In this document: positions 3,646 through 56,797 of the stretch, in pieces
How positions within the stretch are numbered: the stretch's first letter is position 1
How the letters are laid out: each line of letters opens with the position of its first letter
Assembly (NCBI GenBank): GCA_036925085.1
Contig: JAUPFP010000017.1
Span: forward strand, 1,717,058-1,781,057
DNA from: Brachycybe producta
Lineage: Eukaryota > Arthropoda > Diplopoda > Playtdesmida > Andrognathidae
Length of the DNA stretch: 64,000 nucleotides
Reading direction: 5' to 3'
Made by a program: the position numbers and the translations under genes
The notes under the pieces: generated by a model
What the model was told of the DNA's origin: nothing
Databases searched by the model: none
Seen by the model: only the letters and a program-made list of their open reading frames with translations

Positions 3646-4160
3646 CTAGTGGGGTAACCCGTCATAAATGACGGGAGCAAAATTCACAGGCAATTGTGTC
3701 CTGCCTTAGAATTTCTTTTCCTCCGCCCTTTTATGACGTCAGACCAAGTAACAAACCAATTAGAAATTGATGACGTTCATAAAACAGCTGAGCAAAAGAA
3801 ATTCTAATGCAGGGCACAATTGCCTGTGATAATTTCTAGTTTAATTTTGCTACTATTATCCCCTCCCCTTTTTTATATTTGAAAGAGAGCGTTCTCTCTG
3901 GTGTGCGCATGCACGTCGTTTTTTCCTATTTTTACTCCTTTCATTTCAATTTCCGTCACCCCCTCCCACTTTTCTCTCTCTCCCCCTCTACACTTTTCAA
4001 CCTTTACCCCTCTCCAATTTAATATCAATGGGGTTCTTGGATGGGGAGTGTGCAACATATAGTTGGCCTTGAGAAGAAAAAAAAAGCAGTTCATTTATTC
4101 AAATTTATATAAATTCCGATGTTACTCACAGACACACAGACCTGGGATATTATATATAAT
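3646..4160 (-). mobile_element. Helitron-like element, MITE-bearing copy (inside hAT)
   Basis: Starts CTAGTGGGGTAACCCG after an A, with the CCCGTCAT AA ATGACGGG hairpin; on the minus strand this is a hairpin about 12 nt before CTAG|T, the Helitron 3' end pattern. The body carries the family's TCACCCCCTCCC and TATAAATTCCGA blocks. The 5' end is unclear in AT repeats near 4,150. Confidence 0.65.
3686..3827. mobile_element. palindromic 9-bp-TSD MITE nested in the Helitron-like element
   Basis: Inverted ends ACAGGCAATTGTG and CACAATTGCCTGT enclose TATGACGTCA and AATTAGAAATTGATGACG, a core shared with the free-standing MITEs at 5,753, 13,640 and 40,365. Flanks GCAAAATTC and GATAATTTC resemble a 9-bp duplication. 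Confidence 0.7.
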
Positions 4161-4399
4161 GAGGATAGAAAATGTGGGCCGGTATGTCTTTAAAATACCA
4201 AGGCAAAATTATTTTCCCAGCACGTCTCTGGTTTAACTGTATTGCTAATTGATGTCTGATATGATAACTTTATGCAGCCCTGTGTTATCAACTTGTTTTA
4301 TATTTTTTGGGGGGTTTGAAACTTTTTTTAAAAATCGTTTCTAGAAAAACAATCGAGCAAGGTTAATAAGTTGGATAAATAGGTTGATTAAATTTATTA

Positions 4400-4470
4400 C
4401 AGCTCAGTAGAACGTCGATTATCGGAACTAATGTCGGACATGACTAGTTCGTTAATCGAAAGTTCGTATG
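4400..4470. mobile_element. possible pogo/Tigger-like terminus
   Basis: CAGTAGAACGTCGATTATCG followed by GAACTAA resembles the inverted terminus of pogo-group Tc1/mariner elements. A matching second end was not found, so this is at most a fragment. Confidence 0.3.
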
Positions 4471-4475
4471 TACGA

Positions 4476-4600
4476 AGGTTTGGTTTGGTTGGGTTCGGTA
4501 TGGTATGGTTCGGTATGGTTTGGTATGGTTTGATGTGGTTTATTGGTATGGTTTGGTATGATTTATTGGTGTGGTTTATTGGTATCATTTGGTATGGATG
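4476..4600. repeat. TGGTATGGTT minisatellite
   Basis: Irregular tandem units of GGTATGGTT, GGTTTGGT and GGTTTATT. It directly follows the possible pogo-like terminus. Confidence 0.8.
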
Positions 4601-5752
4601 TGTGATAATATTTTATATACAGTATATTATACCTAGAATAGATAGTGTCTCGCAACTGTATCGCGACAGTCGCTAGACAATCCTTTACGTTGTCGCGTGG
4701 CTTTGTATCCCAGTGTGTACTGGGCTTTAACGAATACCACAATCGTACTCTTGTTTTGCTTTATCAAATGCACTCGGCATGAGTGGTAAAGATCCGATTA
4801 GTTTTTCTAATGCGATCTTAGAGATTTTTTAAACATGTTTTCTAAATTTTGTACCTAGGTTGTTGTCTTTGTAAGGTTTATCTGTGTAAGGGAGAATATT
4901 TCTGTTAGACATTCTGAAAAATTTGCAATCTTATCTCAAATATCAGTTCACCTTGAGAGTATAGAGAGCTCTGCATGGAGATAGTTACTTTTTAGGTCGG
5001 TTCCACATGATGCGTGCACTTACAGTATCACTAGGGCAAGGGACTTTCATTAATAATTACTGAACTTGTCATTGTATTTCGGTAGTTTGTGTTTTATGAG
5101 TTAAATATAAGCTTAACGTCATGTTTAGCTTAAAAAGTATGTTTCGTGTAATTACCGAAATTGATCAGCTCTACCGAAAATTCACAATTTAACTGAAAAG
5201 TTAAGTTTGAAATTAAGCTTGACCCTTTTTGTCCAAATTGACATATTAACTTTATTTGGTCAGGATCTGAATAGGTAATTTTCTGTTTTTTTGCTGGGTG
5301 TCTCCAAAGTCTTGTTGTTTCTTATTCTAACCTAAATCTTCTCAAGACTATGCACATCATAATAAATATGGGTTTTATACAGGGTGTTCAAAAACACATT
5401 TTATCATCCAAAAGTTTTTCTCTTCTACATTCATTCTGCTTGTTTTGGTTTTTCCATTTATGCCTGTGATTATGTTATGTGTCTTTTAGGGGTGCCTATT
5501 TTGACACCTAACATAACCACTTAAATTTGATGTTTTTTTTTTGTAACCGTTCTACCGACAGAAATTAAACCTTTTAATAAACGAAAATTTCCGACCTCCT
5601 ACCTATCACAATAGTATTGTGAGCTCTTTGTAATTTGTATACATGTATATGGTTCTTGCATAGAAACGCTCTATTCAAGAAGTGCTGCTGGAACCTTAGA
5701 CCATTACTCTCTCCGGGACTAGAAACTATGAAAATTGATTGTTGATATATAG
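4601..5752. other. no recognised feature
   Basis: AT-rich, no repeat-family landmark or coding signal seen. Confidence 0.4.
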
Positions 5753-5959
5753 ACAGGCAATTAGAAATGGGGACAAACAGAAGTTGTCTCCGCCCTTTTT
5801 ATGACGAACGGCAACTTCTAATTGGTTTGTTGTATGATTCGACGTTGAAAAGGGGCGGAGCATGTGACGTCAGACTACATAACCAACCAATTAGAAGTTG
5901 CCGGTCGTCATAAAAAGGGCGGAGCCAACTTCTGTTTGTCCCGATTTCTAATTGTCTGT
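5753..5959. mobile_element. palindromic 9-bp-TSD MITE, free copy 1
   Basis: ACAGGCAATTAGAAATGGGG at the left is mirrored by CCCGATTTCTAATTGTCTGT at the right, and the inner arms (CTCCGCCCTTTTTATGACG and its complement) pair as well, so nearly all 207 bp can fold. Flanks are AT-rich (GATATATAG and ATATATTTA) and the duplication is not clean in this copy. Confidence 0.8.
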
Positions 5960-6960
5960 ATATATTTAGTGGTGAAAGCAGCATCGGCAGCGTCACTTTA
6001 GTGGGAAAAGGTTGTATTATAATTATGCCTGGCAGGATGAAAGATTAGGGGGGGACGCTTGCACTTACAGGCTTTCACAATGGCGTGTAGAAAGGAAATG
6101 GAGAATAGTTGTTATAAATACCATACAAACAATGCTTGGATGCCATCTTCGTTCGCCAGAAACTTCCCATCATGTTAATGCAAAACAAACATACTAGATG
6201 GCGCTAAATGCTTATAGTTGAGAATAAGGTCACCAGAAGGCGCTGTTGTAGTTTCACCAGGTTATAATGAGAAATCCATCGCCATTTTTAAACACATTAT
6301 TATGAGTTTGCCAGTCCCTGAGAGTAATGGGTTTAAAGCTTGAACTATGTTAGGAATTTTATACAAATGTGACGAAATGCAAGCATCGTGTGGAAACGGC
6401 TTTATGAATGTTATTTTTTTTTTTGTTTGCCTGCATGGCGTGTGTTCATAGCTGATTTTAATTCCCAAAAGTGTACCCTTCAATCTTTCTTTTTTCCCTT
6501 GCTATTTTATGAACACTATCAACTTTTAGCATTGTCTTTTGAGTATGATGTTTATTCTATGGATTTTCTAGTGCATGCATTTGCGTATATATATATAAAG
6601 CTTTTTCGCATCTTTTATTCTAAAGGGATGAAAAAGAGGGAAGAGAGACATAGTAGGAAGGTGAGTTGACAATTGGTTGAGATTTGATTTTATATTTTGC
6701 ATTGCAACTATAGGTCTTGCCTTCTGTTCCTTTTTGTCGGATCTGAAATCTTCCCCGCCCCCCCCAAAAAAAACTATACATAGGGATGCTTGGTGTTTTC
6801 TGGTGTTTTGTTTTTGCAAAGTTCTGAAGAAATCTTGTGACGTGCAATTTCGTCAATTGCTAGTGTCATCATGATTAACTGCCAAAAACTTTTATGCAAA
6901 GAAAAAGTCAAGAATGTATGCAAAGGTTTTTTTTTTTCTTCTTCTTTCTTCTTCTTCTTC
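5960..6960. other. no recognised feature; CTT runs
   Basis: Several short open stretches of low complexity. A (TTC)n run lies at 6,930-6,962. Confidence 0.4.
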
Positions 6961-6964
6961 TTAA

Positions 6965-7270
6965 GCCGCTATTACACTAGCAACTTTTGCAAGTTGCAAA
7001 TTTGCACATGCAATAAAATGTGCAATGTGACATGCAACTTCAATGTTTATAGTGTAATATGACATGGAACTTGATAAAACTTTCCTTTTAACTAGTGACA
7101 AACTCAAGTCTCTTTGAGTTGGAACAGGTTCAACTTTGAGAGACTTTTCAAGTAAACTTTCTCGCAAACAACCAATCAGGCCGTTTGCCGGAAATGACAT
7201 CAGAACTTTGAATGAATTTCTGGCTTCCAAAAAATGCCAAATGAAGTAAATTTACACTACTGATTAGGGC
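6965..7270. mobile_element. left part of a GCCGCTATTACACTAG element
   Basis: Opens GCCGCTATTACACTAGCAAC and follows the same sequence as the complete copy at 52,175-52,815 through ACCAATCAGGCCGTTTGC, then stops. The right end is missing. Confidence 0.65.
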
Positions 7271-7282
7271 AAATATCCCCAC

Positions 7283-7389
7283 ACACCTATTTATAATGAA
7301 GTATTTGAATAAAATAGTTAAATAATTTTAGTAGCAAAATTAAACTAGAATATGGCTCCTCTCAATTATGACGGGTTTACCCCACTAGT
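7283..7389 (+). mobile_element. Helitron-like 3' end fragment, + orientation
   Basis: AAATTAAACTAGAAT, a degraded hairpin, GACGGGTTTACCCCACTAG and then T. The internal MITE is absent, so this copy shows the empty site. Confidence 0.55.
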
Positions 7390-8370
7390 TTTAAAATATG
7401 TAAGAAATCTTATCTTAAAAAGAAATGAACTCTCAAATAATCCATATGTACATTTTTTTTTTGAAGCTCGACTGTATAGTTTTTGACGGGGGGGGGGGAG
7501 AGAAGGTTGGGGGTGGGGGGGGGGGGTGAAGTTTGTAACCATGACAACAGGAAGCTGTTTGGGGATAAATTTGCGAGAAACTTCTTAGCTGCAATGCATC
7601 CGTTGAAATGGTCTCTTTTTTTTTTTCTTCTTTCTTTTTCTTGTCATTACCAAGTGCAATATGGGTTATATTTAAGATGGAAGGAAAGAGAGGCGGAAGT
7701 TTGCTATCTCTCTGGTGTATTCATTGGTGTTGCTCCCAGTGTGAGGTTTGATAAGATTGTGCAATGTGTGTGTCTCTCTCTATCTCTCTCTTGTTGGTGG
7801 AGCTTTGTGGATGGGGTTAATTTGATGAAACCAAAAACCTACAATGATGCTTAATGGTGTTTCAAGTTTAAACATCCCTCAAAATTAATTTCTTATTTGA
7901 GAATTCATTTTATGTGAAAAGATAATTTTGTGCAACAAATGAAGAGAGATAAAAACAGATTTCCTTTTTTTTTAAATTGTTCTAGTCATTTTGATACAGA
8001 TTTTTAAACACATCTGGCAGATTCTATATATAGATGAATAGGAAAAGCGCGTTAGGTCGATGCTAGCGCCAATATCAGTTGAGTGTTAGTTGTAGTAAAT
8101 TTGAGACTGGCCGTTGGCGATAGCTTTGGTCAATTTGAATTTGGCCAATAGGAACGCAGTGTTTTTTTTTTTGCAGTATATAAAACCTCGCTCTTCAGAA
8201 TCAATAGAATTCTAAACAGAATAATACTAAAGCCGCTTTTCGCTTGGAATTTTCGAGAGGAGGTGAGGGGCAACTCTCTTTCTCTCTCTCTCTCATGGCA
8301 AATAGGTGTCGCTGTCCACTAGAGAGACCACTTGAGTGACCATCACCACACAAGCAGCGTAACCTGAGGC
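7390..8370. other. no recognised gene; G-runs and CT repeat
   Basis: G-rich tract at 7,487-7,526, (TC)n at 8,277-8,294. A 123-codon open stretch at 7,483-7,854 starts inside the G tract and has no family resemblance. Confidence 0.4.
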
Positions 8371-10218: not shown

Positions 10219-10765
10219 CTAGTGGGGTAACCCGTCATAAATGACGGGAGCAAAATTCACAGGCAATTGTGCCCAGCATTAGAATTTCTTTTCCTCTGCC
10301 CTTTTATGACGTCAGACCAAGTAACAAACCAATTAGAAATTGATGACGTTCATAATGCTGGGCACAGTTGCCCGTGATAAATTCTAGTTCAATTTTGCTG
10401 CTACTATTATCCCCTCCCCTTTTTTATATTTGAAAGAGAAAATGAGCTTTTCATTTTCTCTGGTGCGCTCATGCGCGTCGTTTGTTCCTTTTTTACTCCT
10501 TTCATTTCAATTTCAGTCACCCCCTCCCACTTTTCCCCCTCCACGTTTCTCTCCCCCCTCCTTCTACACTTTCCAACCTTTTCCCCTCTCCAGTTTAATA
10601 TCATGGGGTTCTTGGATGGGGAGTGTGCAACATATAGTTGACCTTAAGAAAAAAAGGGGTTCATTTATCCTTTTAAATTTATATAAATTCCGACGTGTTT
10701 CAAGGTTTTTGTCCTTGTTTGTACAGCGTTAATCACACGCAGACCTGGCTTAATATATTTATAAT
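10219..10765 (-). mobile_element. Helitron-like element, MITE-bearing copy
   Basis: Starts CTAGTGGGGTAACCCG after an A, with the CCCGTCAT/ATGACGGG hairpin; the nested MITE is at 10,259-10,375 (inner right part shortened). It ends through GTTTGTACAGCGTTAATC and GACCTGGCTTAATATA into AT-rich DNA. Confidence 0.65.
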
Positions 10766-11205: not shown

Positions 11206-11207
11206 CT

Positions 11208-11254
11208 CTTCTCTCTCCTTAATTCTTTCTTTCTTTCTCTCTCCCTCTTTCTCG

Positions 11255-11290
<36 letters not shown>

Positions 11291-11365
11291 TTCTCTCTTT
11301 ATCGCTTTCATTCTCTCTCACTCTCTTTCTCTCTCTATTTCTCTCTCACACTCACTCTCACTACA
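11208..11365. repeat. CT-rich microsatellite
   Basis: Mixed (TC)n, (TTTC)n and CACTCT runs. It produces long low-complexity open frames on both strands that are not genes. Confidence 0.9.
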
Positions 11366-13513: not shown

Positions 13514-14306
13514 TGACACACGGACCACTTTCAGTGGTCGAGTTCAACTGCAAAATGAATTCGGCGTGTTGTGGCTCGTGTGCAACGTTTCGGCATCTTT
13601 CCGAAGCAATATATTGTAATCACAGGCCCACCAATGGTGACAGGCAATTAGAAATCGGGACATACAGAAGTTGGCTCCGCCCTTTTTATGACGAATGGCA
13701 ACTTCTAATTGGTTTGTTGTGTGGTTCGACGTTGAAAAGGGCGGAGCATGTGACGTCAGACTACATAACCCACCAATTAGAAGTTGCGTTCGTCATAAAA
13801 AGGGCTGAGCCAACCTCTGTATGTCCCGATTTCTAATTGTCTGTCCAATGGTGGACGTTTTCGTCTTCAAAAGCTGCTGCTCGTGTGCAAAGATCAGGCT
13901 TTTTTTTCTCCATAGCAATACATTCGGGGCCGTAAATAAATAATTTCTTTTGGAGTGTAAACTAAAAATTACGCCCAAATTACGCCATTTTAAGTAGGAT
14001 GTTGCACCACCCGCCATGAAAGAAAAAAATTCTTTAATAAAAATGCGTCCATATTTTTTTTTTTCAAAATAGAAACTTGTTTTTATTTTAATCAAATATG
14101 AAAAAAATGAAATAAAATTGAGTTTTTTTTTTGTTTGTTTCATTAAACTTTTTTTTACGCCCTCGCTGCTAAGTTTTGAGAGGGCAGTAGTTACCCCTCC
14201 TGTCTTCCCGTTATTTACGACTCTTGAATTTATACATTGCAACCACCGCCCAGCCACCTGCGACGGCAATTCTACGTTCGAACTCGACCACCGATCAAAA
14301 GTGTGC
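13514..14306. mobile_element. inverted-repeat element (TGACACACGGACCAC ends) holding a 9-bp-TSD MITE
   Basis: The left TGACACACGGACCACTTT and GGTCGAGTTC are mirrored at the right by GAACTCGACCACCG..AAAAGTGTGCC. The same kind of ends bound 39,354-39,586. The MITE at 13,640-13,844 was inserted with a clean duplication. Confidence 0.6.
13640..13844. mobile_element. palindromic 9-bp-TSD MITE, free copy 2
   Basis: CCAATGGTG at 13,631-13,639 is repeated exactly at 13,845-13,853. Between them ACAGGCAATTAGAAATCGGG is mirrored by CCCGATTTCTAATTGTCTGT. A 9-bp duplication with long inverted repeats suits Mutator-like elements; superfamily not proven. Confidence 0.9.
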
Positions 14307-14534: not shown

Positions 14535-15356
14535 TAGGGATGGGACATTAGAATCGTCGAATCCCGCACGAATCCTGAAAAAAATATTCGAGATTCGAAA
14601 ACTCGAATTTTCGGGGTTTTTTGTCGTCTCTTTCGAATTTTTCGAGTCTTAAAATCTTTGGTAAAAATTAGTTTTATCTCCATTGACGTCCAATAGAAGC
14701 GTGTTCGCTAACAAAAAAAAAACCCCGGCGATTGTTGCAATTTCGGTTGGTACCTCGGATCACCCATAATCACCTTGTGGCAGTGACCCTGAGTGCAACA
14801 CTTGTTTTATTTTTTAATTATTAATAATTTGATAAGAAAATACAAGTAAATGAAATAATATTAAAATACTAGTGGGGTAACCCGTCATAAATGACGGGAG
14901 CAAAATTCACAGGCATTTGTGCGCATGCGCGTCGTTTTTTTTCTTTTTTTACTCCTTTCATTTCAATTTCAGTCACCCCCTCCCACTTTTCTCTCTCTCT
15001 CCCCTTCTACACTTTCCAACCTTTTCCCCTCACCCCCTCCCACTTTTCTCTCTCTCTCCCCCCCCCCTTCTACACTTTCCAAAGGAAGAGTTCAACACAT
15101 AGTTGACCTTGAGGAAAAAAACGGTTCATTTATTCAAATTTATATAAATTCCGACGTGCTTCAATGGTTTTGTACAGTTACTCCACACACACACACACAC
15201 ACAGACCTGGGATATTGTATATATAATAATAATTATACTCATTTGTTTGTATTTTCTTAATGCATAATTTAGGATTCTTATATTAAGGAGATTCTAGGGA
15301 TTCGAGAAGCTTTTAGGATTCGGATTCGACAAAATTTAAGATTCGTCCTACATCTA
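14535..15356. mobile_element. TAGGGATGGGACATT hAT-like element hosting a Helitron-like copy
   Basis: The left TAGGGATGGGACATTAGAAT and the right complement TAGATGTAGGACGAATC are inverted. The interior is rich in ATTCGAGATTCGAAAACTCG. Flanks CTTTTATC and GTTTTAAC agree at 6 of 8 positions. A Helitron-like element lies at 14,879 to about 15,222. Confidence 0.6.
14879..15222 (-). mobile_element. Helitron-like element, copy with remnant of the MITE
   Basis: CTAGTGGGGTAACCCG start with the hairpin. After GCAAAATTC only ACAGGCATTTGTG of the MITE remains before the body resumes at GCGCATGCGCGTCG, so an internal deletion removed most of it. The CCCCTCCCACTTTTCTC block is duplicated. Ends in TATATATAATAATAATT. 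Confidence 0.6.
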
Positions 15357-17129: not shown

Positions 17130-17968
17130 TTAAGAGGCTCCATCGCAAAATAACTTCGAAAAATCGCCGCAAAGAGCGCTAGCATCGTTTTTTTCTATTG
17201 AGGCCATAGACCCAATGTTAAAGGAAAAACGTTAATTTTTAAAATAACACAGTCGTGGCGGCAATATGGTTTATTTTTCATATTTAAAGTTGTCCAATAT
17301 TAAGTTTTCAAAGTGCAAATGTGCACCTTAAATATATTATGCTGATCAAGTGATAGAATTACAAAAAAAATTTAAGTGCGGTTATATTTTTAAAAACTGT
17401 TTCAAAATCGCGAATTTCTAACTCATATGTTAAACTCCATTGAGTACGCTCTCTTAAGCAAAAAAAACAACATCCATTAAAATGCTCGTAAAAATAACCT
17501 AAAAAATAATTTAAAAAAAAAACACAAGCCACAGTGAAGTCAACACATTGGCGCACGTGCTGATTTTTTTTATGGTTTGTTTTTTAAATTAGTTTTACTC
17601 CTTAATTTTACCAACATTCTCATGGATGTTTTTTTTTTCTTCTTATTTGGGCGTACTCAATGGCGATTTTGAAATAGTTTTTAAAAATATAACCGCACTT
17701 AAAATAATAACACACACTTAATATAATTTTTTTGTCATTCTATCACTCGATCAGCATAATATATTTAAGGTGCACATTGCACTTTGAAAACTTAATAATG
17801 TGCAATTTTAAATATATGAAAAAAATAAACAAATTGCCGCCGCGACTGTGTATTTTAAAAATTAACATTTTTTCCTTTAACATTGGGTCTATGGGCTCAA
17901 TAGAAAAACAATGCTAGTGCTCTCTTTGTGGAGATTTTTCGAAGTAATTTTGTGATATAGCCTCTTAA
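17130..17968. mobile_element. TTAA foldback element, copy 2
   Basis: TTAAGAGGCTCCATCGC at the left, GATATAGCCTCTTAA at the right, arms of nearly 400 bp. It carries all family landmarks, including GCTAGCATCG and AGCACGTGCGCCAAT near the middle. Confidence 0.85.
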
Positions 17969-19750: not shown

Positions 19751-20752
19751 GGCCGTATTCACAATCGCTGAGATTCGTATTTCATCTTAGGAGGCTAAAT
19801 CACAAAATTACTTCGAAAAATCTACGCAAAGAGCGCTCAGATCATTTTTCTATTGAGCCCATAGACCCAATGTTAAAGAATAAGTGTTAATTTTGAAAAT
19901 ACACAGTCGTCGCGGTGGCAATATGTTTGTTTTTCATATTTAAAGTTGTCCAATATTAAGTTTTCAAAGTGCAATGTGCACCTTAAATATATGCTGATCG
20001 AGTGATAGAATGACAAAAAATTGGTAAGTGTGTTTATATTTTTAAAAACTTTCAAAATCGCCAATTTCTAACTGTTTATGTTAAACTCCATTAAGTACGC
20101 GCTCGTTAGAAAAAAAAACATCCATGAAATTGCTTGTAAAAATATGTACAAATAATTTTATAAAACCAGAAAAAAAATCAGCACGTGTGCCAATGTGTTG
20201 GCGTCACTGTGGTTTTTTTTAAAATTATTTTTGTGTTTTTACCAACATTTATTTTAATTGATGTTTTTTTCCTTACGAGCACGTACTCAATGGAGTTTAA
20301 CATAAGAGTTTGAAATTCGCCATTTTGAAATATTTTTGAAAAATATAACCGCACTTACCAATTTTTTGTCATTCTGTCACTCGATCGGCATATATTTAAG
20401 GTGTACATTGCACTTTGAAAACTTCATATTGGACAACTTTAAATATGAAAAATAAACATATTGCCGCCACGACTGTGTATTTTAAAAACTATAGTTTCTT
20501 CTTTAACGTTGGGGTCTATGGGCTCAATAGAAAAACTATGCTAGTGCTCTTCGCGGAGATTTTTCGAAGTAATTTTGCAATGTAGCCTCTTAATGGTAGA
20601 AAGGTAGTCTGAATCGGAGACACCCTAAATATATTAGAACACTTCTATGATTACAAGTAACATAGGTGTTTTCAAAACCACCCATAAGTTAGTGTATTGT
20701 TTTGCTCACTTATGGAGCACATTTCCTTAAAGTGAACACTGTGAATACGGTT
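19751..20752. mobile_element. GGCCGTATTCACA inverted-repeat element, interrupted by a foldback copy
   Basis: GGCCGTATTCACAATCG at the left and CACTGTGAATACGGTT at the right are inverted. The foldback at 19,787-20,593 fills most of it. Another end of the same type (GACTGTGAATACGGCC) is at about 21,562-21,577. Confidence 0.6.
19787..20593. mobile_element. TTAA foldback element, copy 3 (nested)
   Basis: The left end is TTAGGAGGCTAAATCAC, the right end TGTAGCCTCTTAA. Both arms and the centre AGCACGTGTGCCAATGTG are present. Confidence 0.8.
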
Positions 20753-22442: not shown

Positions 22443-22604
22443 TTTATTATAAATTAGGGATGGGACGTTCGAATCCCGCGAATCTTGAAAATTATTCGAG
22501 ATTCGAAAACTCGAATCTTCGCGCTATTTTTCCGTCTTTTTCAAATTTTTCGAATCCTAGGATCTTTGGAATGACCCATTCCTAATTTATAATAAAACTA
22601 GTGG
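22443..22604. mobile_element. short TAGGGATGGGAC hAT-like element
   Basis: TTTATTATAAATTAGGGATG on the left is mirrored by CATTCCTAATTTATAATAAA on the right. The inside has the ATTCGAGATTCGAAAACTCG motif of the element at 14,535. The inverted ends extend beyond the usual terminus. Confidence 0.6.
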
Positions 22605-22607
22605 GGT

Positions 22608-23113
22608 AACCCGTCATAAATGACGGGAGCAAAATTAACAGGCAATTGTGCCCAGCATTAGAATTTCCTCTCAGACCAAGTAACAAACCCAATTAGAAAT
22701 TGATGACGTTCATAAAAGGGCTGAGCAAAAGAAATTCTAATGCTGGGCACAATTGCCTGTGATGAACTGTAGTTTAATTTTGCTATTATCCCCACCCCTT
22801 TTTATATTTGAAAAAGAAAATGAGTTTTTCATTTTCTCTGTTGTGCGCATGCGCGTCGTTTGTTCTTTTTTTACTCCTTTCATTTCAATTTCAGTCACCC
22901 CCTCCCACTTTTTCTCCCTCCAGGTTTCTTTCTCCCCCCCCTTCTACACTTTCCAACCTTTTCCCCCTCTCCAATTTAATATCAATGGGGTTCTTGGATG
23001 GGGAGTGTGCAACATATAGTTGACCTTGAGAAAAAAAAGCGGTTCATTTATTCATTTAAATTTATATAAATTCCGACGTGCTTCAAGGTTTTTGTCTTTG
23101 TTTGTACAGCGTT
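22608..23113 (-). mobile_element. Helitron-like element, MITE-bearing copy
   Basis: CTAGTGGGGTAACCCG with hairpin; nested MITE at 22,638-22,760; then GTGTGCGCAT-type block, the TCACCCCCTCCC block, GGGTTCTTGGATGGGG... in the family order, and TTTGTACAGCGTTAG. It directly abuts the hAT-like element at 22,443-22,604. Confidence 0.65.
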
Positions 23114-27896: not shown

Positions 27897-28138
27897 GTAT
27901 ATTAAGCTTTATCTGTGTACAACGCTGTACAAACAGGGACAAAAACGTTTAAGCAGCATCGGAATTTATTTAAATTTAAATGGACTGGTTTTTTTTTCTC
28001 ACGGACAACTTTATGGTTGCGCTCTCTTGATCCAAGAACCCACAATATTAAGGTTCTTATAAAATAGTTAAATACTTTCAGTAGGAAAATTAAACTAGAA
28101 TTTTGCTCCCGTCATTTATAACGGGTTACCCGACTAGT
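27897..28138 (+). mobile_element. Helitron-like element, + orientation, empty MITE site
   Basis: Runs from CGCTGTACAAACAGGGACAA and GGAATTTATTTAAATTTAAA to GCTCCCGTCATTTATAACGG and GTTACCCGACTAG then T. AAACTAGAATTTTGCTCCCG is the uninterrupted form of the site that holds the MITE in other copies. Confidence 0.65.
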
Positions 28139-28680: not shown

Positions 28681-29193
28681 CAAGGGATTCAAGGAACCCT
28701 ATATACCTCCATTGCTTTAATATATCAAATAACCAACTTTTTTTCATTGTTACATGTGTGCGCATGAGTACGCACATGAACACACGTGCACGCTAAAAAA
28801 TTTATAAAAAATAACCCCTGGGTAAAATTTTCTAAGTTTTTGTCAGGAGCATCATATTGACCCACGGAATCAAATAAAAAATACTGCGTGTCTTTATCTC
28901 ATTCCGTTCTTGAGTTGTTATACCCTCAAAATCGGGGTTCCGGACACACACACAAACATACAGACATCTTTTTCTAGAGCAATGGAGGTCAAAAACTGTA
29001 AACGAGTCAGCGGAGACAATATTCATGGCAATATCTCTTTTGGTTTTCTTAGGGTTTTTCTATTGACATTTTGTGAAAACTATTTTTTTTTTCAAACAGT
29101 CATAAAAAGTTTTATTTTTCAAAGATATCACCAACTATTCTAGTTCCTAAAAAAACACTTTGAATTTTTTTGTTTTTCCTGAAATGTTCAAAC

Positions 29194-32940: not shown

Positions 32941-33321
32941 TTAAGAGGCTACATCACAAAATTACTTCGAAAAATCTCTGCAAAGAGCGCTAGCATCGTT
33001 TTTCTATTGAGCCCATAGACCCAATGTTAAAGAAAAAAAACATTTGTTAATTTTTAAAATACACAATCGCGCGGCAATATGTTTATATTTCATATTTAAA
33101 GTTGTCCAATGTTAAGTTTTCAAACTTTGAAAACTTTGAAAACTTAATATTGGACAACTTTAAATATGAAAAATAAACATATTGCCGCGCGATTGTGTAT
33201 TTTAAAAATAATGTTTTTTCTTTAACATTGGGTCTATCGGCTCAATGGAAGAAAAAAAAAAACGATGCTAGCGCTCTTTGCGGAAATTTTTCGAAGTAAT
33301 TTAGTGATTGTAGCCTCTTAA
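32941..33321. mobile_element. TTAA foldback element, copy 5 (short, near-perfect palindrome)
   Basis: TTAAGAGGCTACATCAC and TTGTAGCCTCTTAA bound 381 bp whose arms are almost exact reverse complements (CAATCGCGCGGCAATATG against CATATTGCCGCGCGATTG). The usual spacer is gone; the arms meet at TTTCAAACTTTGAAAAC near 33,130. Confidence 0.88.
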
Positions 33322-33930: not shown

Positions 33931-34001
33931 TTAAGAGGCTACATCACAAAATTACTTCGAAAAATCTCTGCAAAGAGCGCTAGCATCGTTTTTTTCTATT
34001 G

Positions 34002-34200
34002 TAGGTCACTAGTGACCCGCAATTCTCATCTGAATAGCTATATGAATTGTAGGTCGCTAGTGACCCACAATTTTTGTCTGAATAGCTTTCTAAAGTGTAG
34101 GTCACTGAGTGACCTACGATTAGTCCTAGTGTAGGTCACTGAGTGTGACCTACATTTCTAAAGTGTAGCTCACCTAGTGACCTACGATTAGTCTGTCCCA
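34002..34200. mobile_element. GTAGGTCAC palindrome-cluster element, copy 1
   Basis: At least five GTAGGTCACT(N)AGTGACC-type palindromes, ending CCTACGATTAGTCTGTCCC as in the complete copy at 47,628-47,808. The left terminus is missing. Confidence 0.7.
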
Positions 34201-34791
34201 AAATTTAGTCTTCAATTGAAGTGTCAGATGTATTAGGAAAAGCTTCATGTTATTTAGATTTGGAATTCTTGCTTTTTCTGTTGGTTGTAGGCCTGTATGT
34301 GAGATTTTCTTGTTGTTGTTGTTGTGCAGTGAGTAGCTAATGACCAGCTAAGTCTGGTGAAATGGGCTTTAGTATAGTCTAGTTGAGAATGCTTTTTTAT
34401 GTACTTATTACAGAAATATAAACAAGAACTATATCTTGCAAGGATATTGTTTTTTATATCTACAGTGAATCTCATTTCATGTTTACAGCACATTTCGTGT
34501 TATGATATGAAAAGCATCTTTCTAGGAGACTTCTTTTCATATAACATGAGTAGTTTTTAAAAAATGTTTTTTTTTAATAATGATTCTGTGATTCTGTACT
34601 ACTGGGACTGTAACCATACTGCATATGCATATGCACGTGTTCTGCCATTGAAGCCAACACATTGGCACACGTGTCGATTTTTTTTGTTTTTCTTACTCAA
34701 TTGAATTTAACATTTAAGAATTAAAAATTTGTGATTTTGAAATATGTTTAAAAAAAATAGAAGCCCACTTTCTAATTTTTTGAAGGTCTAT

Positions 34792-35165
34792 GGGTAGGTT
34801 TTTACTCCAAACTTTGCTAAGATTCACAACCTTTGAAACTCCTAAAAATTAGCTTCCCCCAAAGATTAGCTTGTTCATACAAACAATGTGGTCTTGCAAT
34901 GTTTACGTTATTTCCTAACCTTAAGGTTTGGTTTATACTCCCTTGCTAAGCGTCAAGGCAGCCTGCAAAGCTTCAAAAATGACGTCAGAGCTTGAGGTTT
35001 TTGCCTTCACCAGAGCTTGAAGCTAGCTTTGAAATTGTTCAACTTTACAAAGCTTAGCAACTCAAAGCACGAATTATGAAATGGATACACAAACGGGGTG
35101 AACAACCTCACACCTTTTTTTTTCTTCCAGAAGGGGAAGGGTTCTAGTGGTTCTATAGTCCGAGC
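34792..35165. mobile_element. GGGTAGGTTT element, rearranged copy
   Basis: The left arm (GGGTAGGTTTTTACTCC, TTTGCTAAGATTCAC) matches 44,957 onward. At 34,919 it switches to the reverse complement of the right arm (GGTTTATACTCCCTTGCTAA, GCTTAGCAACTCAAAGCAC). The right arm is thus flipped relative to the other copy. Confidence 0.6.
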
Positions 35166-35635
35166 CATATTAAGAAAGGGTAAAAAAGGACTGTCCCCCC
35201 GACTGGATGTTTTTAGCCACATCACCAACAATTTTAAGTTATATGCATGCATAATACAAACAGTAGTCCCTGCATATTACAAAAATGGATCAAAGGAAAG
35301 CCATTGAGAAGGAAAACTCATGATGTAGGAATACAAATTTGGTGAAAAGTCGCCACTGGTGGTGCACAAAATTTATCCCTTCTTAATATGACTTTGACTA
35401 TAGGTTCTTGTGGAGATTTTTCAAAGTAATTTTGCAATGTAGCCTCTTAAGAAGCTCTAAAAGCGCCACGGACGTCATTGGGGTGATATATGGGCCAATA
35501 TAACTATGGGCTGATGTAGTGGTGCTGACATCGTTAAAACAATTATCATTTGTGAAAAATCACGTGAGAAATAATCATATATACCATTAGTATATAAAGT
35601 TAATGTAAACTTGATGCAATTTTCTTGGTTTTATT

Positions 35636-37216: not shown

Positions 37217-38731
37217 CAAGGGATTCAAGGAACCCTATAGACCTCCATTGCTTTAATACTGTATAAGCTTTCATATATCAAATAACCAACTTTTTTCATT
37301 GTTACATGTGTGTGCATGAGTACGCACATGAACACACGTGTGCGCGTGAGTATGCACATGAGTATGCACATGTACACGTGCGTGCATGTGTATGCAAATT
37401 TACACACGTGTGCAAATGTGTATGTACATTTACACACATGTGCACAAACGTACGCACGTGTGCACATGCATATGCACATGTACGCACATGTATGCATGTG
37501 TACGCACATGTATGCACTTGCGTGCATGCGTATGCACATGTACGCACTTGTATGCATGTTCACTCACGTGTGCGCACGTGTACGCACATGTACGCACTTG
37601 TGTGCATGTTCACTCACGTGTGCGCACGTGTACGCACATGTACGCACTTGTGTGCATGTTCACTCACGTGTGCGCACGTGTACACACATGTACGCACTTG
37701 TGTGCATGTGTATGCACATGTACACACTTGTGTACATGTGTAGTACACACATGTACACACTTGTGCGCATGTGTACACACATGTACACACTTGTGCGCAT
37801 GTGTACACACATGTACACACTTGTGCGCATGTGTACACACATGTACACACTTGTGTGTATGTGAGCGCACATGTACACACGTGTGTGCATGTGTATATAG
37901 ATAAACACACATGTATGTACTCACATACATGACATAGTTACATGTGATGCGCATGCGTCATTCATTTGTAATAATGTGGTTTAAAATGAAAATACGTCAC
38001 ATTGTATTCTAATATACAAAAATAATAACAGAACATAGAAAATAACACCCCTCCTAAATAATAGAAAAGTCCTCCTTTGGAATGCTACAACTGGAAAGAG
38101 GAAGGATCTCGATTTTTTTTTAAAAAAATTATGTTTTTAAAAAATCGAAATTTTTTTCCAGTTTCATCGTCAGAATGTGTACATCATTTTAGGTCTGATG
38201 ACATTTTATTGTAGGTTGCTCCGTTTTCGAGTTGTTCGACCCACAAATAATTATGACCAAAAACTCAAAATTTGTTTCTAAAAAATTCATAAAAATATAA
38301 CCCCTGGGTAACATTTTCTAATTTTTTGTCAGGAGCATCATATTGACCCACGGAGTTGTTCGACCCACTAAATTGGGGTTCCGGACAAACAGCCACACAG
38401 ACATAAAGACATCCTTTTTTGCCCCTTTTCTTGCATGATCCTATATACCTCCATTGCTCTTTAGAGCAATGGAAAGAAAAAAATTGACACATGCGCCAAT
38501 GTGTTAGTTTCATAAATTATCACTAACTAATCTAGTTTCTAAAACACTTTTGAATTTTTTTTTTGTAATGTTTCTGCTGAATAACGTTTGCTTGAAAAAA
38601 TAAATTTTCTCACAACCAGGTTGTTGGGAGGATGGAAGAGATTTTCTATAGAACATACAGTATGTTATAGTAACTGCAAAAGCGCCATTAGGAGAAACAA
38701 AAACAAAATAAATATCTACTCAGCCACCTTT
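37215..38731 (+). repeat. R8 interspersed repeat, copy expanded by a minisatellite
   Basis: Same opening (AAGGGATTCAAGGAACCCTA) and middle blocks (ACCCCTGGGTAACATTTTCT, CATATTGACCCACGGA) as 28,681-30,550, ending AATATCTACTCAGCCACC. The CACATGAACACACGTG segment, short in the other copy, is here about 600 bp. Confidence 0.6.
37300..37915. repeat. alternating purine-pyrimidine minisatellite, about 30-bp unit
   Basis: Units such as GTGTACACACATGTACACAC + TTGTGCGCAT repeat with near-strict alternation of purine and pyrimidine, broken about once per unit at CTT. The period is a multiple of three without stops, so long open frames rich in Cys, His, Met and Thr appear on both strands; they are not genes. 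Confidence 0.95.
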
Positions 38732-40364: not shown

Positions 40365-40560
40365 ACAGGCAATTTGAAAACGAGATGAACAGAAGTTGGC
40401 TCCGCCCTTTTTATGATGAACGCATATTCTAATTGCTAGGTTATGCAGTCTGACGTCACATGCTACGCCATGTTCAACGTCGAACTACACAACAAACCAA
40501 TTAGAAGTTGCTGTTCGTCATAAAGCCAACTTCTGTTCATCCCGTCTTCTAATTGCCTGT
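40365..40560. mobile_element. palindromic 9-bp-TSD MITE, free copy 3
   Basis: ATATTTAGA at 40,356-40,364 is repeated exactly at 40,561-40,569. Ends ACAGGCAATTTG and CTAATTGCCTGT. The middle TGACGTCACATGC is inverted relative to the other copies. Confidence 0.9.
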
Positions 40561-46662: not shown

Positions 46663-46721
46663 CCCTTTGTACATAGGCTAAGTCCTTAGCCTGAGCTACA
46701 TGATGGTTGTGAGAACTAGGC

Positions 46722-49140: not shown

Positions 49141-52100
49141 GTAAGTCGTTAAAGTGTTGCCATCTCTTTTGATTTATACAAATCTCGTCACCACAAAATT
49201 GCTTCGAAAAATCTCCACAAAGAGCGCTAGCATCGTTTTTCTATTGATGCTCATAGACCCAATGTTAAGGGGAAAATGTTAATTTTTTAAATACACAGTT
49301 GTCGCGGCAATATGTTTATTTTTCATATTAAATTTGTTCAATATTAAGTTTTCAAAGTGCAGTGTGCACCTTAAATATATGCTGATCGAGTGATAGAATG
49401 ACAAAAAATTGGTAAATACCCTTATATTTTTAAAAATTATTTCAAAATCGCTAATTTCTAGTTCTTAAGTTAAACTCCATTGAGTACACCCAAATAAGAA
49501 AAAAACATCCATTAAAATGCTCGTAAAAATACTTAAAAATAATTTTAAAAAACCGCAATTAAGCCATAGTGAAGCTAACACATTGGCACACGTGCTGATT
49601 TTTTTCTGTTTTTTTTTTTAAAAAACTATTTTTAGGTATTTTTTATGAACATTTTAATGGTTGTGTTTTTCTTACTCAATAGAGTTTAACATAACAGTTA
49701 AAAATTCGCTATTTTGAAATAATTTTTAAAAATAGGACCGCACTTAGCAATTTTTTGTCATTCTATCACTCGATCAGCATATATTTAAGGTGCACATTGC
49801 ACTTTGAAAACTTAATATTGGACAACTTTAAATATGAAAAATAAACATGTTGCCGCCGCGGTGTGTTTTAAAGACTAACGTTTCTTCGTTAACATTGGGT
49901 CTATGGGCTCAATAGAAAAACGATGCTAGCGCTTTTTGTGGAGATTTTTCAAAGTAATTTTGTGATGTGTTTATATCGGCATCTTTTTTTTTAATTAAAT
50001 ATTTTTTTTTCTAGCAGGAGAACAAAAGTTTCTCGTTGAACCGGAAGACGTCACAGTCACTGCTGGACGAGATTCGTCTATTATTTTGCATTGCAAAGTA
50101 CAGAACAAAGTGGGAATGTTGCAGTGGACACGAGACGGGTTTGGACTTGGTCCCGAAAGAGAACTTTTGGGGTTCGAACGTTACACTATGATCGGATCTG
50201 ATCAAGATGGTATTAATTTTTTTAAAAAAAACACACTACAGAATCAAATGTTTTTTTGCATCTAAAAAATGTTTGTTTGTTGTTTTGTTTTTCTTTTTCT
50301 TTCAGGAAACTATTCATTGTATATTTCACCCGTGACTTTAGAGGACGATGCGTCTTATCAATGCCAAGTTATGGCATCTTCCGACACTATTTCCGGAATA
50401 CGTTCTCGAACAGCAAAAGTCACAGTGCAAGGTATAATCGATCAGAAAAAAAAAACTCAAAAAAACCTTACTAGAGATTTTTTTTTTCGCAATAATTTCA
50501 ATGAAAAACTCAACACTTTTTCTTAATTTTCATGATTTCTTTTTTAGGGTTTTGAGGTTTGAAGTTATTTATTTTGTTTTCGTCCTACCGCGGAGGGTAG
50601 GACGAAAACAAAATAACCCACACGAAGTTTTGAGAGAATTTTTAAATTTTAATTTTTAAAATTGTTTGTTGGCGCCCGGAGGTTACGACTTTCCCCCATC
50701 CTCCTCGTTGTTGAGACACTGGCCTGAATAATGCAGCCTAAATAGCTTAGTGGTGCTCTCAAGAGAAAGTTAACAAATGAGAAAAAGAAGACAGAAAACA
50801 GTTATTAAGCAAAAGTAATGTCAATGACGATAACCAGGATGTAGTGGTTGAATTTGATGTATATGTAAGATTCATAATCATTCATTGGGGAACTAACTTC
50901 TAAGGGCTCCCAAGTTCTACTTGGCACAGGGCCCCGAAAAGTGTTAATCCGGGCCTGTTCAAACTGTCATAAAATATTTATTTTTTTAAGATATTGCCAT
51001 GAAAAAACTTTAACCATAATCTACTACCATTCTAGTTTTTAAAACAAGTTTTAATTTTTACGTAATGTTTCTAAAAAAAAAACTGTTCGCTTGAACATTT
51101 TTGCGTCCAATTTTTTTTTTCTCCAAAAACAACTATGGAGCATTAGTCACTGCAATGGCGCGCCTTCCAAGGAGACAAAAACAAAATAAATATTTATTCA
51201 GCCGTTTAAATTCGTAACTTTTCGAGGCTAAAAGTTTCGATATCGATTTTGAATGTCTTGCAAAGCAACAGGTAGAGGGGCTCATATTGAAATGTATTAG
51301 TATGCATGCATGAAAAACGTTTTTTTTTTTTCAAGTTATATGGAGCCCTGCAGAGGACTTTTGCAATTTTCTGTCGACTTTTTATAAAACGCGACATGTC
51401 GACCTTTATTCTCGAAATGTTGACTTTTATTCGGCCACGTTAATTATGCCATGTTTTGTGCACCATACTGTGATAATTAAATTATTGCTGCTAAAAGAGA
51501 GGGCGCTTGCAATATAATTTAATTATTAGAGTATGATGCGCGCAACATGGCATAATTAACGTGGCCGCATAAAAGAGATTTAAAGTCGACATGTCGAGAT
51601 TAAAAGTCGACATGTCGAGATTAAAAGTCGACATGTTGAGATTAAAAGTCGACTTTTTATAAAACGCGACATATCGACTTTTTATGTCGACTTGTAATCT
51701 CTTTTAATTTGGTCCATGTTAATTACGCAATGTTGAGCGCACCATACTCTAATAAATTTTAATTTAAATTTTAATATTTTTTAAATTTTAATAAAGTTTA
51801 ATTATTAGAGTATGGTGCGCGCATCATGGCATAATTAACATAAAGAAATTGAGTGATGTAGCCTCTTAAACGTATTTTGGCCTTGTTTGTACAGCGTTAT
51901 ACACAGACAGACACAGCTTAATATATATAAAATTGTTGAAACTCTCCTATTATTTAAATGCTGCCTAATATGATATAGAATACAAAATGAAGCCAACAAA
52001 TAATGTTGTTGTTGTTTTCTTTGCAGTGCCTCCTGAAGCTCCAGTTATTGTTCAAGGGCCGAGACTAAAAACGACTGCTGGAATGCAATTGAACCTAGAA

Positions 52101-55100
52101 TGTGAATCGAACGGAGGAAAACCAGCTGCCGAGGTATGATGTCACCTCTTGTGCTTTTTCTTTCATGTTTTTTTTAAGCCGCTATTACACTAGCAACTTT
52201 TGATGCAAGAAAACTTTGCAATGTGATATGCAACTTCCTTGTTTATAGTGTGATATGACGTGCGACTTGATAAAACTTTATTTTGAACAAGTATGAGACT
52301 CAGTCTCACCGAGTTGAACAGGTTCAACTTCTGACAGACTTTTCTTGTAACTTTCTGACAAACCACCAATCAGGCCGTTTGCAGGAAATAATCATATGTA
52401 ACATTGAACGAATTCCCCCCTCTCCTCCCCCCCCCCCGATGACAATATGGACACACAAACCAAGAGGGCAGACATCGAAGAAAATCATGTACGATTTTCA
52501 TTAAGATTCACAGAAGATCGTGTGGATGGAAAGTCATTTTTCTTTTGAGCTGCATTTTACTTGGATATCCAGAATAGAATTGAAATTTTAAAATTCAGTA
52601 AAACGCGGATTAAAAGTAAAATGGCTTCTGATACTGTACGAGATTCACCCGAATGTCTTCCCCTTGACATAAACGAAGTTTTGAAAACTTGATTGGGTTT
52701 AACTAGGTTGCATAGTGTGATATAGAAGTTTATTATAAAGTTCTAGTTGCCAGTCACATCACGAGTTGCATTGCAAGTTGAATTGCATCAAAAGTTGCTA
52801 GTCTAATAGGGGGCATTACTGTGACTCCCGGATTTTTTTTTTTCGTTTTTTTTTTAGGAATATCACTGACTTGGAGTTTGAAATTGTGTGTTTCGCTCCG
52901 ACATGATATTTTTATGATTAATTACATGTTCTCTTTAACCTCTCGCTCCACCTTTATTCCGCAGATTTTTTGTTATCATGTACATGTATCTCTCTTTTTT
53001 TTTTCTCTCTAAATCTTCCACCTCTTAATTCATCTCTGGCTTTTGAAGGTGGGGGAGGAGGAGGAGGGGAAAATTTTGTTTTGAATGGTTTTTGTCCAGT
53101 AGCGAAAAAGAAGCGACCTCTACACCCCAACTGTTCCAGATGTTTAGATTCTCATGAAACTAGTTTTTATAATTTGCCACTAAAAAAGTAAAAATTGATA
53201 CCCTCTTTCATACATGAGACACTAATATACACACGCACGCACACACACAGATGTATAAATCTTCAACCACTGCCAACCAGGCTTATGTCCATGTAAAGTC
53301 TTGCAAAGCTGAGCGATTTTGTTTTTTTCTTCTTATTTTCAATGCAAACCCTCCCCCCCCCCCCAACAAAAGTAAACGTTATATGGATACTCGATCATCG
53401 ATTCATCGTCCAATTTGCAATTTGTAACAATAAAACACTTTTCGTCAGCTGCAAGTAATGTGGTAAGGCCTGGATCTCACATACAGGAATTATTCTACGC
53501 CCCGCCCACCCAGGGGGTATAAGGACATGATCTCACATACAGTGTCGTGCACGGGTTCTCTCACATTTTTACATTAAAATTAATTTGAATATTCTCTGCA
53601 AAGAGAGCGCTAGCATCGTTTTTCTATTGAGCCCATAGACCCGTGTGTTAAAGAAAAAAATGTTAATTTTTAAAATACACACAGTCGCGGGAATATGGTT
53701 TATTTTTCATATTTAAAGTTGTCCAATATTAAGTTTTCAAAGTGCAATGTGCACCTTAAATATATGCTGACCGAGTGATAGAAGGACAAAAAATTGGTAA
53801 GTGCGGTTCTATTTTTTAAAACTTATTTCAAAATCGCGAATTTCTAACTCTTGTGTTAAACTCCATTGAGTACGCCCAAATAAGATAAAACATCCATTAA
53901 ATGCTCGTAAAAATAATTTAAAAACAAAAAAATCAGCACGTGTGCCCATATGTTGGCTTCATTGTAGTTTAATTGTATTTTTTTAAAATTATTTTTAGGT
54001 ATTTTGACGAGCATTTTAATGGATGTTGTTTTTTCTTATTTGAGCGTACTCAATGGAGTTTAACACAAGAGTTAGAAATTCGTGATTTTGAAATAAGTTT
54101 TAAAAAATAGAACCGCACTTACCAGTTTTTTGTCATTCTATCACTCGATAAGAGCATATATTTAAGGTGCACATTGCACTTTGAAAACTTAATATTGGAC
54201 AACTTTAAATATGAAAAATAAAACATATTGCCGCGCGACTGTCTATGGGCTCAATAGAAAAACTATGCTAGCGCTCTTTGCGTAAATTTTTTGAAGTAAT
54301 TTTTGTGATTGTAGTTTCTTAAATAAATTTTATTTTCAGTTGGCTTTTTTTGCTGTATGTGGGATCTTGGATTTAAGTGTCAGTAATTTAATACAGATTT
54401 AATCTTGTTGCATTTATTATGTATGTCATTTACTAATTAGCATATTCTATTTTTAAATGGTTAGTAGTTTAATTAGTATGAGCTCCGTAATTGAGATTGT
54501 GTGTTTGAGCTATGAATTGATTTTCGTTTTGTTGTTGTTGTTTTTGTTGGTGTTGTTCAACGGACGTGGCAGTCATTATTTTAATTTTTACAAATGACAT
54601 CCAGACAAGGAATGTTTCAGTCTAAATAAAATCATTTGGGACATTTATAGTTGGCCGAACTAATTGAAGTAGACTATGATGTATAGCTTGAATTTCTACT
54701 TTGTGTTTACAACTTTAAATGAAATTTTAAATTGTTTAAACAATTCTGAAACTTTCCGCTTGAATTTGGGCTAGTGTGTCTATTGTGCTTTTTCGGCTAA
54801 TAAGAATATGGGCGTGATATTTGGGTTAAAAGCTTCTTTTAATTTTTCCCTTCATTCTCTATCCCTCTGTGGAGAGGAAGTGAAAATCGTAAACAAATGT
54901 TCGTGTTGTAAAAGAGGGGGGGGGGGAGAGGGGTTAAATTGTGAGAAGTTGAAAACACTCTTTTAATGAAACAGATGTTTCTTGTGGCGATTATTTTTTT
55001 TTTTGGGGGGGGGGGGGGATACTACCAAAGTCAATATCTACAATTTTAAAACAATATGTGATCTAATATTGCATAATTCAATTTCGATTATACAAAAACA

Positions 55101-56723
55101 AACTGCGGCACAACATGCGTACGAAATTAAAAGTTTCCAGCTAATCTACTTGAAAATACTAGCGAAAAAAAGTTATTTAAAAATCGCAAAAGTCATAAAA
55201 AACGTAAAAAAACCGCCTCCATAAATATATTATAGCGTTATAACCATGTTGGCCGGAGTTCACTACAGCTACCAAAAAAATTATTACCCTTTCTTCCTAA
55301 CCTAACCTAACCGAACCTTACCTAACCTAACCGAACCTCACCTAACCTCACCTCACCGAACCAAAGCGAACCTCACCTAACCTAACCGAACCTCACCTAA
55401 CCTAACCGAACTTCACCTCACCTCACCTAACCGAACCTCACCTAACCTAACCGAACCTTACCTAACCTAACCGAACCTCACCTAACCTAACCGAACCTCA
55501 CCTAACCGAACCTCACCTAACCTAACCTAACTTAACCGAACCTCACCTAACCTAACCAAACCTAACCGAACCTTACGGAATCTAACCAAATCTAACCTAA
55601 ACTAAACTTAATGACTCAAGTAGCTGTATAGACCTTATTGATAAATTAAAAGGCCTATATTTTTTTGATAGCTGTGATGACCCTTGGCAGCTGTAGGGAC
55701 CCTTTTGATGAAAAAAAGGTCTAAATTTTTTTGGTAGTAGTAGTGAGCCAGTCCCACTATGTGTATTGTAACACGCCTGGAACCAGATTCCAGGGCATAC
55801 TCGTAAAATGGAGGCACCTTAACCTACGCTCACTCGACTTGGCCCAAGAAATAAGGTGAATCGAAGCCAGAGAAAATATAAACGAACTTTATTTAATAAA
55901 AGAAAAGCCTTAAAACTATGAATTAACCTCCAGGGGCTCGTAGACTGTTCTTTTCTCGAGTCAGCAATCGATGTTTTCGAGTTGATGACCATTTGAGAAA
56001 GAACAGCTGATACTTGAATTTGCCTCTCAATTTGAATGTGATTGTTCACGCCCTTTCGATGATATATGTCGATCACATGATTGGCAAATTCTCCTATCAG
56101 TCATGGCAGTCCAACTGATGTCATCTCGGCCACATGGATGCCAATGCAGAATATTGCCAACCTATAAGATTGCATAGCTAGTTCGTGCCTGTTTATGGTT
56201 TCAGCACTTGGAAACATTTTTTTAAAAATTTAATTTCAGATTTTTTCAATGAAATAAAATATTTCACATACTAGTGGGGTAACCCGTCATAAATGACGGG
56301 AGCGAAATTCACAGGCAATTGTGCCCAGCATTAGAATTACTTTTCCTCTGCCCTTTTATGACGTCACACCAAGTAACAAACCAATTAGAAATTGACGACG
56401 TTCATAAAAGGGCTGAGCAAAAGAAATTCTAATGCTGGGCACAATTGCCTTTGATAAACTGTAGTTTAATTTTGCTACTATTATCCCCTCCCCTTTTTAT
56501 ATTTGAAAGAGAAAATGAGATTTTCATTTTCTCTGGTGTGCGCATGCGCGTCGTTTGTTCCTTTTTGACTCCTTTCATTTCAATTTCAGTCACCCCTCCC
56601 ACTTTTTCTCCCTCCACGTTTCTCTCCCCCCTTCTACACTTTCCAGCCTTTCCCCCTCTTCAGGTTCATTCATTTAAATTTATATAAATTCCGATGTTAT
56701 ACACACACACACACAGACCTGGC

Positions 56724-56797
<74 letters not shown>

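Follow-up and report, generated by a model that had tools for sequence, protein, structure and literature searches.

Canonical Helitrons are described, in the available portions of PMC4067079 and PMC5148889, as elements with a 5' TC, a 3' CTRR and a palindrome of 16-20 nt located ~10-12 nt from the 3' end; the same portions also describe the ends of Helitron1, Helitron2 and Helentron. The subject of this report is a family of non-autonomous Helitron-like elements with eight copies in a 64,000-nt stretch of the Brachycybe producta genome (C17:1717058-1781057, hereafter the window). Very probably, one such element captured a miniature inverted-repeat transposable element (MITE) once, amplified it as a passenger to thousands of loci and later gave rise to a deletion form that was amplified as well. 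The MITE lies at an identical position in its carriers, solo MITEs with flanking repeats are present elsewhere, the MITE-bearing copies form one tree group, and junctions of the deletion form number in the thousands.

The family resembles the canonical non-autonomous Helitrons, as far as these are characterized in portions of PMC4067079 and PMC4344730, in its CTAG end, 18-nt palindrome, following T, noncoding body and high copy number. It differs from them in the lack of a 5' TC, in a TA-rich 5' end that varies between subfamilies and in the presence of a MITE beside the 3' hairpin. A foreign transposon that resides in a Helitron and moves along with it is also described in part of PMC4344730 for the baculovirus Hel-2 copy. 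While that part describes one mobile copy, thousands of copies share one insertion here, together with one amplified deletion derivative. The oyster Helentron/HINE with satellite repeats, as presented in part of PMC7492417, likewise illustrates a non-autonomous rolling-circle element that spreads foreign repeats; in contrast, the passenger considered here is a transposon with its own flanking repeats, and no subterminal inverted repeats were found in its carrier.

A mobile element inside a rolling-circle element is already known in kind, and the contribution of the present case is the scale along with the coexistence of filled, empty and deleted states. The available portion of PMC3789558 contains no precedent, and a search mainly at the level of titles, which does not prove absence, found no title on a MITE amplified as the passenger of a Helitron subfamily. 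The abundance of all three states in one genome provides a natural experiment on the tolerance of a foreign palindrome beside a rolling-circle 3' terminator.

Copies in the window and junctions across the genome

Local BLAST and direct reading of the window located eight related copies at the places given by a first-pass annotation, which had been made from the sequence alone. As stated there, the copies at 3,646, 10,219, 22,608 and 56,271 harbor the MITE (starting at 3,686, 10,259, 22,638 and 56,311), and direct reading detects none in the copies at 2,332, 7,283 and 27,897. The MITE begins 10 bp past the terminal hairpin in all four MITE-bearing copies, which are designated form B. All three empty copies are members of E_A, a subfamily of greater divergence.

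The genome searched comprises 295 Mb in 442 contigs. With up to 3 mismatches allowed and a reversed-pattern control of 0 for each pattern, the searches detected 6,178 MITE-left junctions, 520 empty junctions and 2,827 junctions of the deletion form, form C. MITE-left junctions outnumber empty ones by ~12 to 1, a ratio that is rough because the junction patterns are of unequal length. Left and right junction searches place the insertion point at one constant position genome-wide, and no differing insertion points were seen. A total of 175 distinct 3' ends were classed as form B (55), E_A (45), form C (37) and a second MITE-free subfamily, E_B (26), with 12 of no clear class. Most of these loci were chosen by an exact or near-exact junction match, and the set is biased toward young copies.

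The insertion site

The target of the MITE is a small hairpin, GCAAAATT-ctagttt-AATTTTGC, with an 8-bp stem, and the insertion is seen at the edge between stem and loop; the arrangement is visible at 3,677-3,850 and in the empty copies. The exact empty string GCAAAATTCTAG is present once in the window, and the two other empty sites have decayed to GCATCGAG and GCCATATTCTAG. The string GATAAATTCTAG is also present once, at 10,376, and the other three MITE copies carry GATAATTTC, GATGAACTG and GATAAACTG. The first-pass annotation had proposed a 7-of-9 duplication around the MITE. One window copy displays it, but the left and right 9-mers of the other three are identical at 6/9, 4/9 and 5/9 positions. 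Since GCAAAATTCTAG and GATAAATTCTAG each occur once, the 7-of-9 picture in the window relies on single copies, and genome-wide data had to be consulted. Matches of 7/9 or better to the left 9-mer, GCAAAATTC, make up 0.25% of the 9-mers in the window; this low rate and the 6,178-to-0 count of the left junction against its reversed control place the pattern beyond chance.

Genome-wide, the exact right junction followed by a free 9-mer is found 1,458 times. A hand count among 100 matches listed revealed GATAAACTG in 66, GATAAATTC in 25 and other 9-mers in 9. The possibility that the right junctions with GATAAATTC and with GATAAACTG represent two clades was rejected, as they require 19 and 18 changes on the MITE tree.

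The MITE as an independent transposon

The passenger is near-palindromic over its 142 bp and has the terminal repeats ACAGGCAATT, consistent with the short length and terminal inverted repeats of MITEs. Most of its copies reside in the carrier. The copy number of a MITE is usually taken to reflect its own transposition; here that reading would err roughly tenfold, because the base that marks the Helitron site, a T two bases before the end and present at both Helitron junctions, accompanies 2,945 of the 3,103 exact 26-base MITE ends. The T is absent from the other 158, and 30 of these were read. Seven of the 30 lie within a Helitron and have a mutated flank (L076, L078, L079, L080, L082, L083 and L084), and five come from one tandem array (L094-L098; C3:2943361-2943668), in which part of the MITE has turned into a short array with five MITE ends spaced exactly 70 bp apart.

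The collected loci contain 57 Helitron-borne MITEs and 17 others, among them one (L110) that is Helitron-borne, which leaves 16 solos. Flanking repeats of 8, 9 or 11 bp are present in 14 of the 16. In the 9-bp register, eight solos (L071, two in L074, L086, L087, L090, L092 and L072) agree at 7-9 bases; the 8-bp register accounts for five at 7-8 bases (L075, L089, L093, L099 and L100) and the 11-bp register for one at 10 (L073), whereas L085 and L094 have no flanking repeat; the chance level per register, estimated from random window pairs, is 0.1-0.4%. The presence of the MITE outside the Helitron, with its own flanking repeats in most solos, therefore identifies it as a real transposon.

The passenger resembles MITEs of the Mutator-like (MULE) type in its short length, its palindromic structure and its flanking repeats of 8-11 bp, mostly 9. 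In contrast with these, most copies of the present MITE were made by its carrier rather than by the MITE.

A probable single capture

Phylogenetic analysis of the carrier relied on 75 bodies (32 form B, 29 E_A and 14 E_B), with the MITE, one 9-mer and form C (29 rows) excluded. All 32 form-B bodies lie on one side of a branch (100/99), the 29 E_A rows constitute a separate group (100/98), and the 14 E_B rows fall in between. Rows were lost where the right body was unreadable (23/55 in B, 13/45 in E_A, 9/26 in E_B and 8/37 in C). Six E rows were also dropped (L038, L045 and L079 of E_A; L104, L116 and L119 of E_B), as some right bodies came from neighboring elements; the rule removed any row whose segment extended too far or included another hairpin or a MITE ahead of its end. 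The grouping of 32/32 form-B bodies, the constant position and the solo MITEs with flanking repeats bear out the first-pass proposal of a single insertion followed by multiplication as a passenger.

The subfamilies differ in their relation to form B. E_B harbors the first part of the pyrimidine-rich body of form B, without the MITE and without a further ~110 bp; its 34 junctions are MITE-free, with form-B sequence just inside the site. E_B is closer to form B than E_A is, and hence the nearest empty relatives are not those in the window. Mean pairwise distances over 69 columns are 0.125 for E_A (29 rows), 0.087 for E_B (14), 0.096 for B (32) and 0.083 for C (28). The proposed dating of MITE-bearing against empty lineages is coarse: E_A displays the largest within-group distance, but the intervals of E_B, B and C overlap.

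As the trees are unrooted, the choice of gain over loss relies on the extra 9-mer and the solo MITEs. Topology alone would permit a palindrome ancestral to the Helitron, with the empty copies produced by deletion or precise excision, and the excess of MITE-bearing over empty copies agrees with such an origin. However, loss would have to take the MITE plus exactly one 9-mer, the same MITE is present solo elsewhere with flanking repeats, and E_A, with its largest within-group distance, and E_B are both MITE-free. The third site position is C in 33/34 E_B junctions as opposed to A in the commonest MITE-bearing copies. An ancestral palindrome is very improbable and was rejected based on the solo MITEs and the MITE-free state of E_A and E_B; nor does the MITE appear as an original part of the element in the body tree, where its bearers form one group.

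The variety of right 9-mers counted above could instead point to a hot spot, the loop of the small hairpin, that was hit independently in several copies. Nearly all of these 9-mers, however, carry GAT in place of GCA/GCC, which is not expected from independent duplications. At one MITE column adjacent to CTTTT, a C is common to 49 of the 54 aligned Helitron-borne copies (2 A, 2 T, 1 gap and no G), and the same column in nine aligned solos contains 7 G, 1 T and 1 C. Together with the clustering of all 32 form-B bodies, the common GAT and the common C led to the rejection of repeated insertion at one site, which is the least probable of the alternatives considered.

Several results weigh against one capture with subsequent amplification. 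The 9-mer duplication is not perfect: among the collected copies, the pair seen most often, GCAAAATTC/GATAAATTC, agrees at 7/9, and GCAAAATTC, GCCAAATTC and GCGAAATTC are all missing from the right junctions that lie within one mismatch. A right-junction search with GCCAAATTC produced 441 matches, with none exact, four at one mismatch (GCTAAATTC once and GACAAATTC three times) and the rest at two (96 listed). Based on these counts, the right duplicate was altered before most of the amplification, or early in it. The body tree lacks a root, and an earlier tree (32 B, 32 E_A and 17 E_B, including the six polluted rows) needs four form-B changes, although one clade is not rejected (AU p 0.20). 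Resolution of the MITE tree is low, and the Helitron-borne MITEs form no supported clade; again, a clade is not rejected (AU p 0.53). Neither the autonomous partner nor the MITE transposase was identified, with no transposase search result behind the latter, and the 3' end of an autonomous partner was not found in the single stretch read downstream of one locus that matches PF14214 (Helitron_like_N).

The deletion derivative and the proposed history

Form C consists of the stub ACAGGCAATTGTGC fused to the body word GCATGCGCG. Each partner of this join includes TGTGC in form B, and a deletion between the two words would therefore be the simplest origin of form C. The first-pass annotation had described the copy at 14,879 as a remnant. 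Only the first 13-14 bp of the MITE are indeed left there, at 14,909, but the copy is a member of an amplified deletion subfamily. Its shortened MITE is hence inherited, and local decay was rejected in view of the 2,827 form-C junctions.

The history that accounts for these states would begin with a non-autonomous Helitron-like element struck once by a 142-bp MITE, a member of a family whose insertions are flanked by repeats of ~8-11 bp and which probably moves by cut-and-paste with a putative transposase. The insertion would have occurred 10 bp inside the 3' terminal hairpin, at the loop edge of the second, small hairpin. The struck element presumably stayed mobile, and a Rep/helicase acting in trans may have copied it by the rolling-circle mechanism, which would have taken the MITE as internal sequence into thousands of loci. 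A later deletion, likely between the two TGTGC words, would have left the first 13-14 bp of the MITE, and the shortened form C would have been amplified in turn. The direction of this scheme, a gain rather than a loss of the MITE, is likewise the one that the comparisons above suggest.

Classification of the carrier

The terminus that the first-pass annotation took for the left end is, on the opposite strand, the Helitron 3' end (18-nt palindrome, TTACCCCACTAG, then T). The window copies end in CTAG, in agreement with the 3' CTRR of canonical Helitrons, and CTAGTG is readable in 137 of the 175 collected 3' ends. The 18-nt palindrome ends 12 nt from the 3' terminus, CTAG included. A T follows CTAG in 135 of the 137 readable copies, an A before CTAG on the window strand, which describes the 3' side of the target only. 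At the other end, the right ends inspected are TA-rich and subfamily-dependent, with no common TC. Typical among the tails inspected are GACAAAGCTTAATATATA in E_A, GACTTAGGGTTAGTATATA in E_B, GACCTGGCTTAATATA or GACCTGGGATATTATATATATAAT in B and mostly GACCTGGGATATTATATATATAAT in C. Inverted repeats of the Helentron/HINE type, asymmetric or subterminal and 11-15 bp long, were not found in the outer 110 bases of both ends in six copies, where exact matches are at most 9 bp (8-bp matches only, and one of 9 bp) and diverged repeats could escape. Because neither a 5' TC nor long inverted end matches were found, the family is termed Helitron-like; its 3' end is where it comes closest to canonical Helitrons.

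Assignment of the carrier to Helentron/HINE, of the Helitron2 group, is a less likely alternative that nonetheless merits attention, and it would leave the passenger account unaffected. A TA-rich 5' end in place of TC, a microsatellite-like pyrimidine stretch within the body and frequent head-to-tail copies are consistent with it. The 3' CTAG, the 18-nt palindrome 8 nt before it and the A before CTAG in 135/137 suit canonical Helitrons instead, and the ends of the copies tested lack a convincing inverted repeat.

PF14214 has 19 matches in the genome, all above the cut-off, and none in 14 control genomes; none of the 19 was tied to the carrier family. The best of these loci are at C17:3545111, C62:46410, C47:598717 and C1:11670386. 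The stretch downstream of the PF14214 locus mentioned above contains inserted B and C copies. At L161 (C17:3548700-3551700), ~3-4 kb downstream of the best PF14214 match, a form C adjoins a MITE-bearing form B.

Copies often abut the TA-rich end of another copy head-to-tail (L105, L106, L112, L113, L118, L119, L152, L158 and others). By tail, such arrangements are present in 10/18 for E_B, 9/59 for GGGATATT, 7/31 for B, 1/27 for E_A and 0/3 for GGGGCTTAA. The excess in E_B may reflect a target preference for TA tails or tandem products of rolling-circle copying.

Possible departure of the passenger and possible effect on the carrier

One solo, L099, is the only aligned solo with C at the diagnostic column. 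It differs from the Helitron-borne MITE of L001 by one base and from that of L141 at three alignment columns, and the tree program treated the three MITEs as identical once gappy columns were dropped. No Helitron hairpin is present in the 3,028 bases around L099, and its flanking repeat is an imperfect 7/8. L099 as a departure from the Helitron is a single case and a lead only. A two-tier mobility, in which the MITE rides the Helitron replicatively to thousands of loci but can still leave, so that a low-copy MITE would become a dispersed family that could be relaunched, is a tentative proposal.

The MITE may also affect its carrier. In a single-stranded DNA (ssDNA) fold of the 205 3'-terminal bases of the copy at 3,646, the MITE forms one long hairpin that directly adjoins the terminal hairpin; the folding energy is -64.7 kcal/mol, compared with a mean of -19.0 for shuffled sequences (z -15). 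Such a stable hairpin at this place, together with the excess of MITE-left over empty junctions, is what would be expected if the palindrome had actively raised the success of the carrier rather than being neutral. This effect is improbable: the body of form B also differs from those of E_A and E_B, and the MITE is not the sole difference. Form C has lost the MITE hairpin and is abundant as well; the data therefore do not show a benefit of the palindrome.

Features of the window

The carrier copies and the solo relatives of the MITE in the window are listed in Table 1.

Table 1. Positions of carrier copies, passenger MITE and MITE relatives in the window
Feature	Position	Strand	Remarks
Form B copy, full MITE	3646..4165	-	Helitron 3' end CTAG at 3,646; right limit approximate
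MITE passenger, 142 bp	3686..3827	.	left 9-mer GCAAAATTC, right 9-mer GATAATTTC
3' terminal hairpin, stem CCCGTCAT	3658..3675	-	8 nt before CTAG, Helitron orientation
Form B copy	10219..10765	-	MITE 10,259-10,375, 117 bp, internal deletion; right 9-mer GATAAATTC
Form C copy	14869..15227	-	13-14 bp MITE stub from 14,909 joined to body word GCGCATGCGCG; right limit approximate
Form B copy	22598..23110	-	MITE 22,638-22,760, 123 bp, internal deletion; right 9-mer GATGAACTG; right limit approximate
Form B copy	56271..56735	-	MITE 56,311-56,452, 142 bp; right 9-mer GATAAACTG; (TA)n follows
MITE-free copy, older subfamily E_A	2332..2597	-	insertion site decayed (GCATCGAG); right limit approximate
MITE-free E_A copy, only ~3' 100 bp	7283..7391	+	site GCCATATTCTAG; left limit approximate
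MITE-free E_A copy	27897..28137	+	exact empty site GCAAAATTCTAG at 28,095-28,106, minus strand
Diverged MITE relative, solo, ends ACAGGCAATTAG/CTAATTGTCTGT	13640..13844	.	perfect 9-bp duplication CCAATGGTG
Second diverged solo relative	40365..40560	.	perfect 9-bp duplication ATATTTAGA
Third diverged solo relative	5753..5959	.	no clean 9-bp duplication (GATATATAG / ATATATTTA)

The window also contains a reading frame with an immunoglobulin domain at 57,680-58,078. A second repeat family of ~0.4-1.5 kb, with inverted ends TTAAGAGGCTACATC, is present in many copies and pieces (227-995, 17,130-17,967, 19,787-20,594, 32,941-33,321, 33,931-35,450, 49,178-49,979, 61,424 and 63,301; limits approximate). 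A long tandem array of the ACGCACATGT type, in 10-bp steps, occupies 37,291-37,918, and its start (37,291-37,345) matches 28,739-28,793 at 95%.

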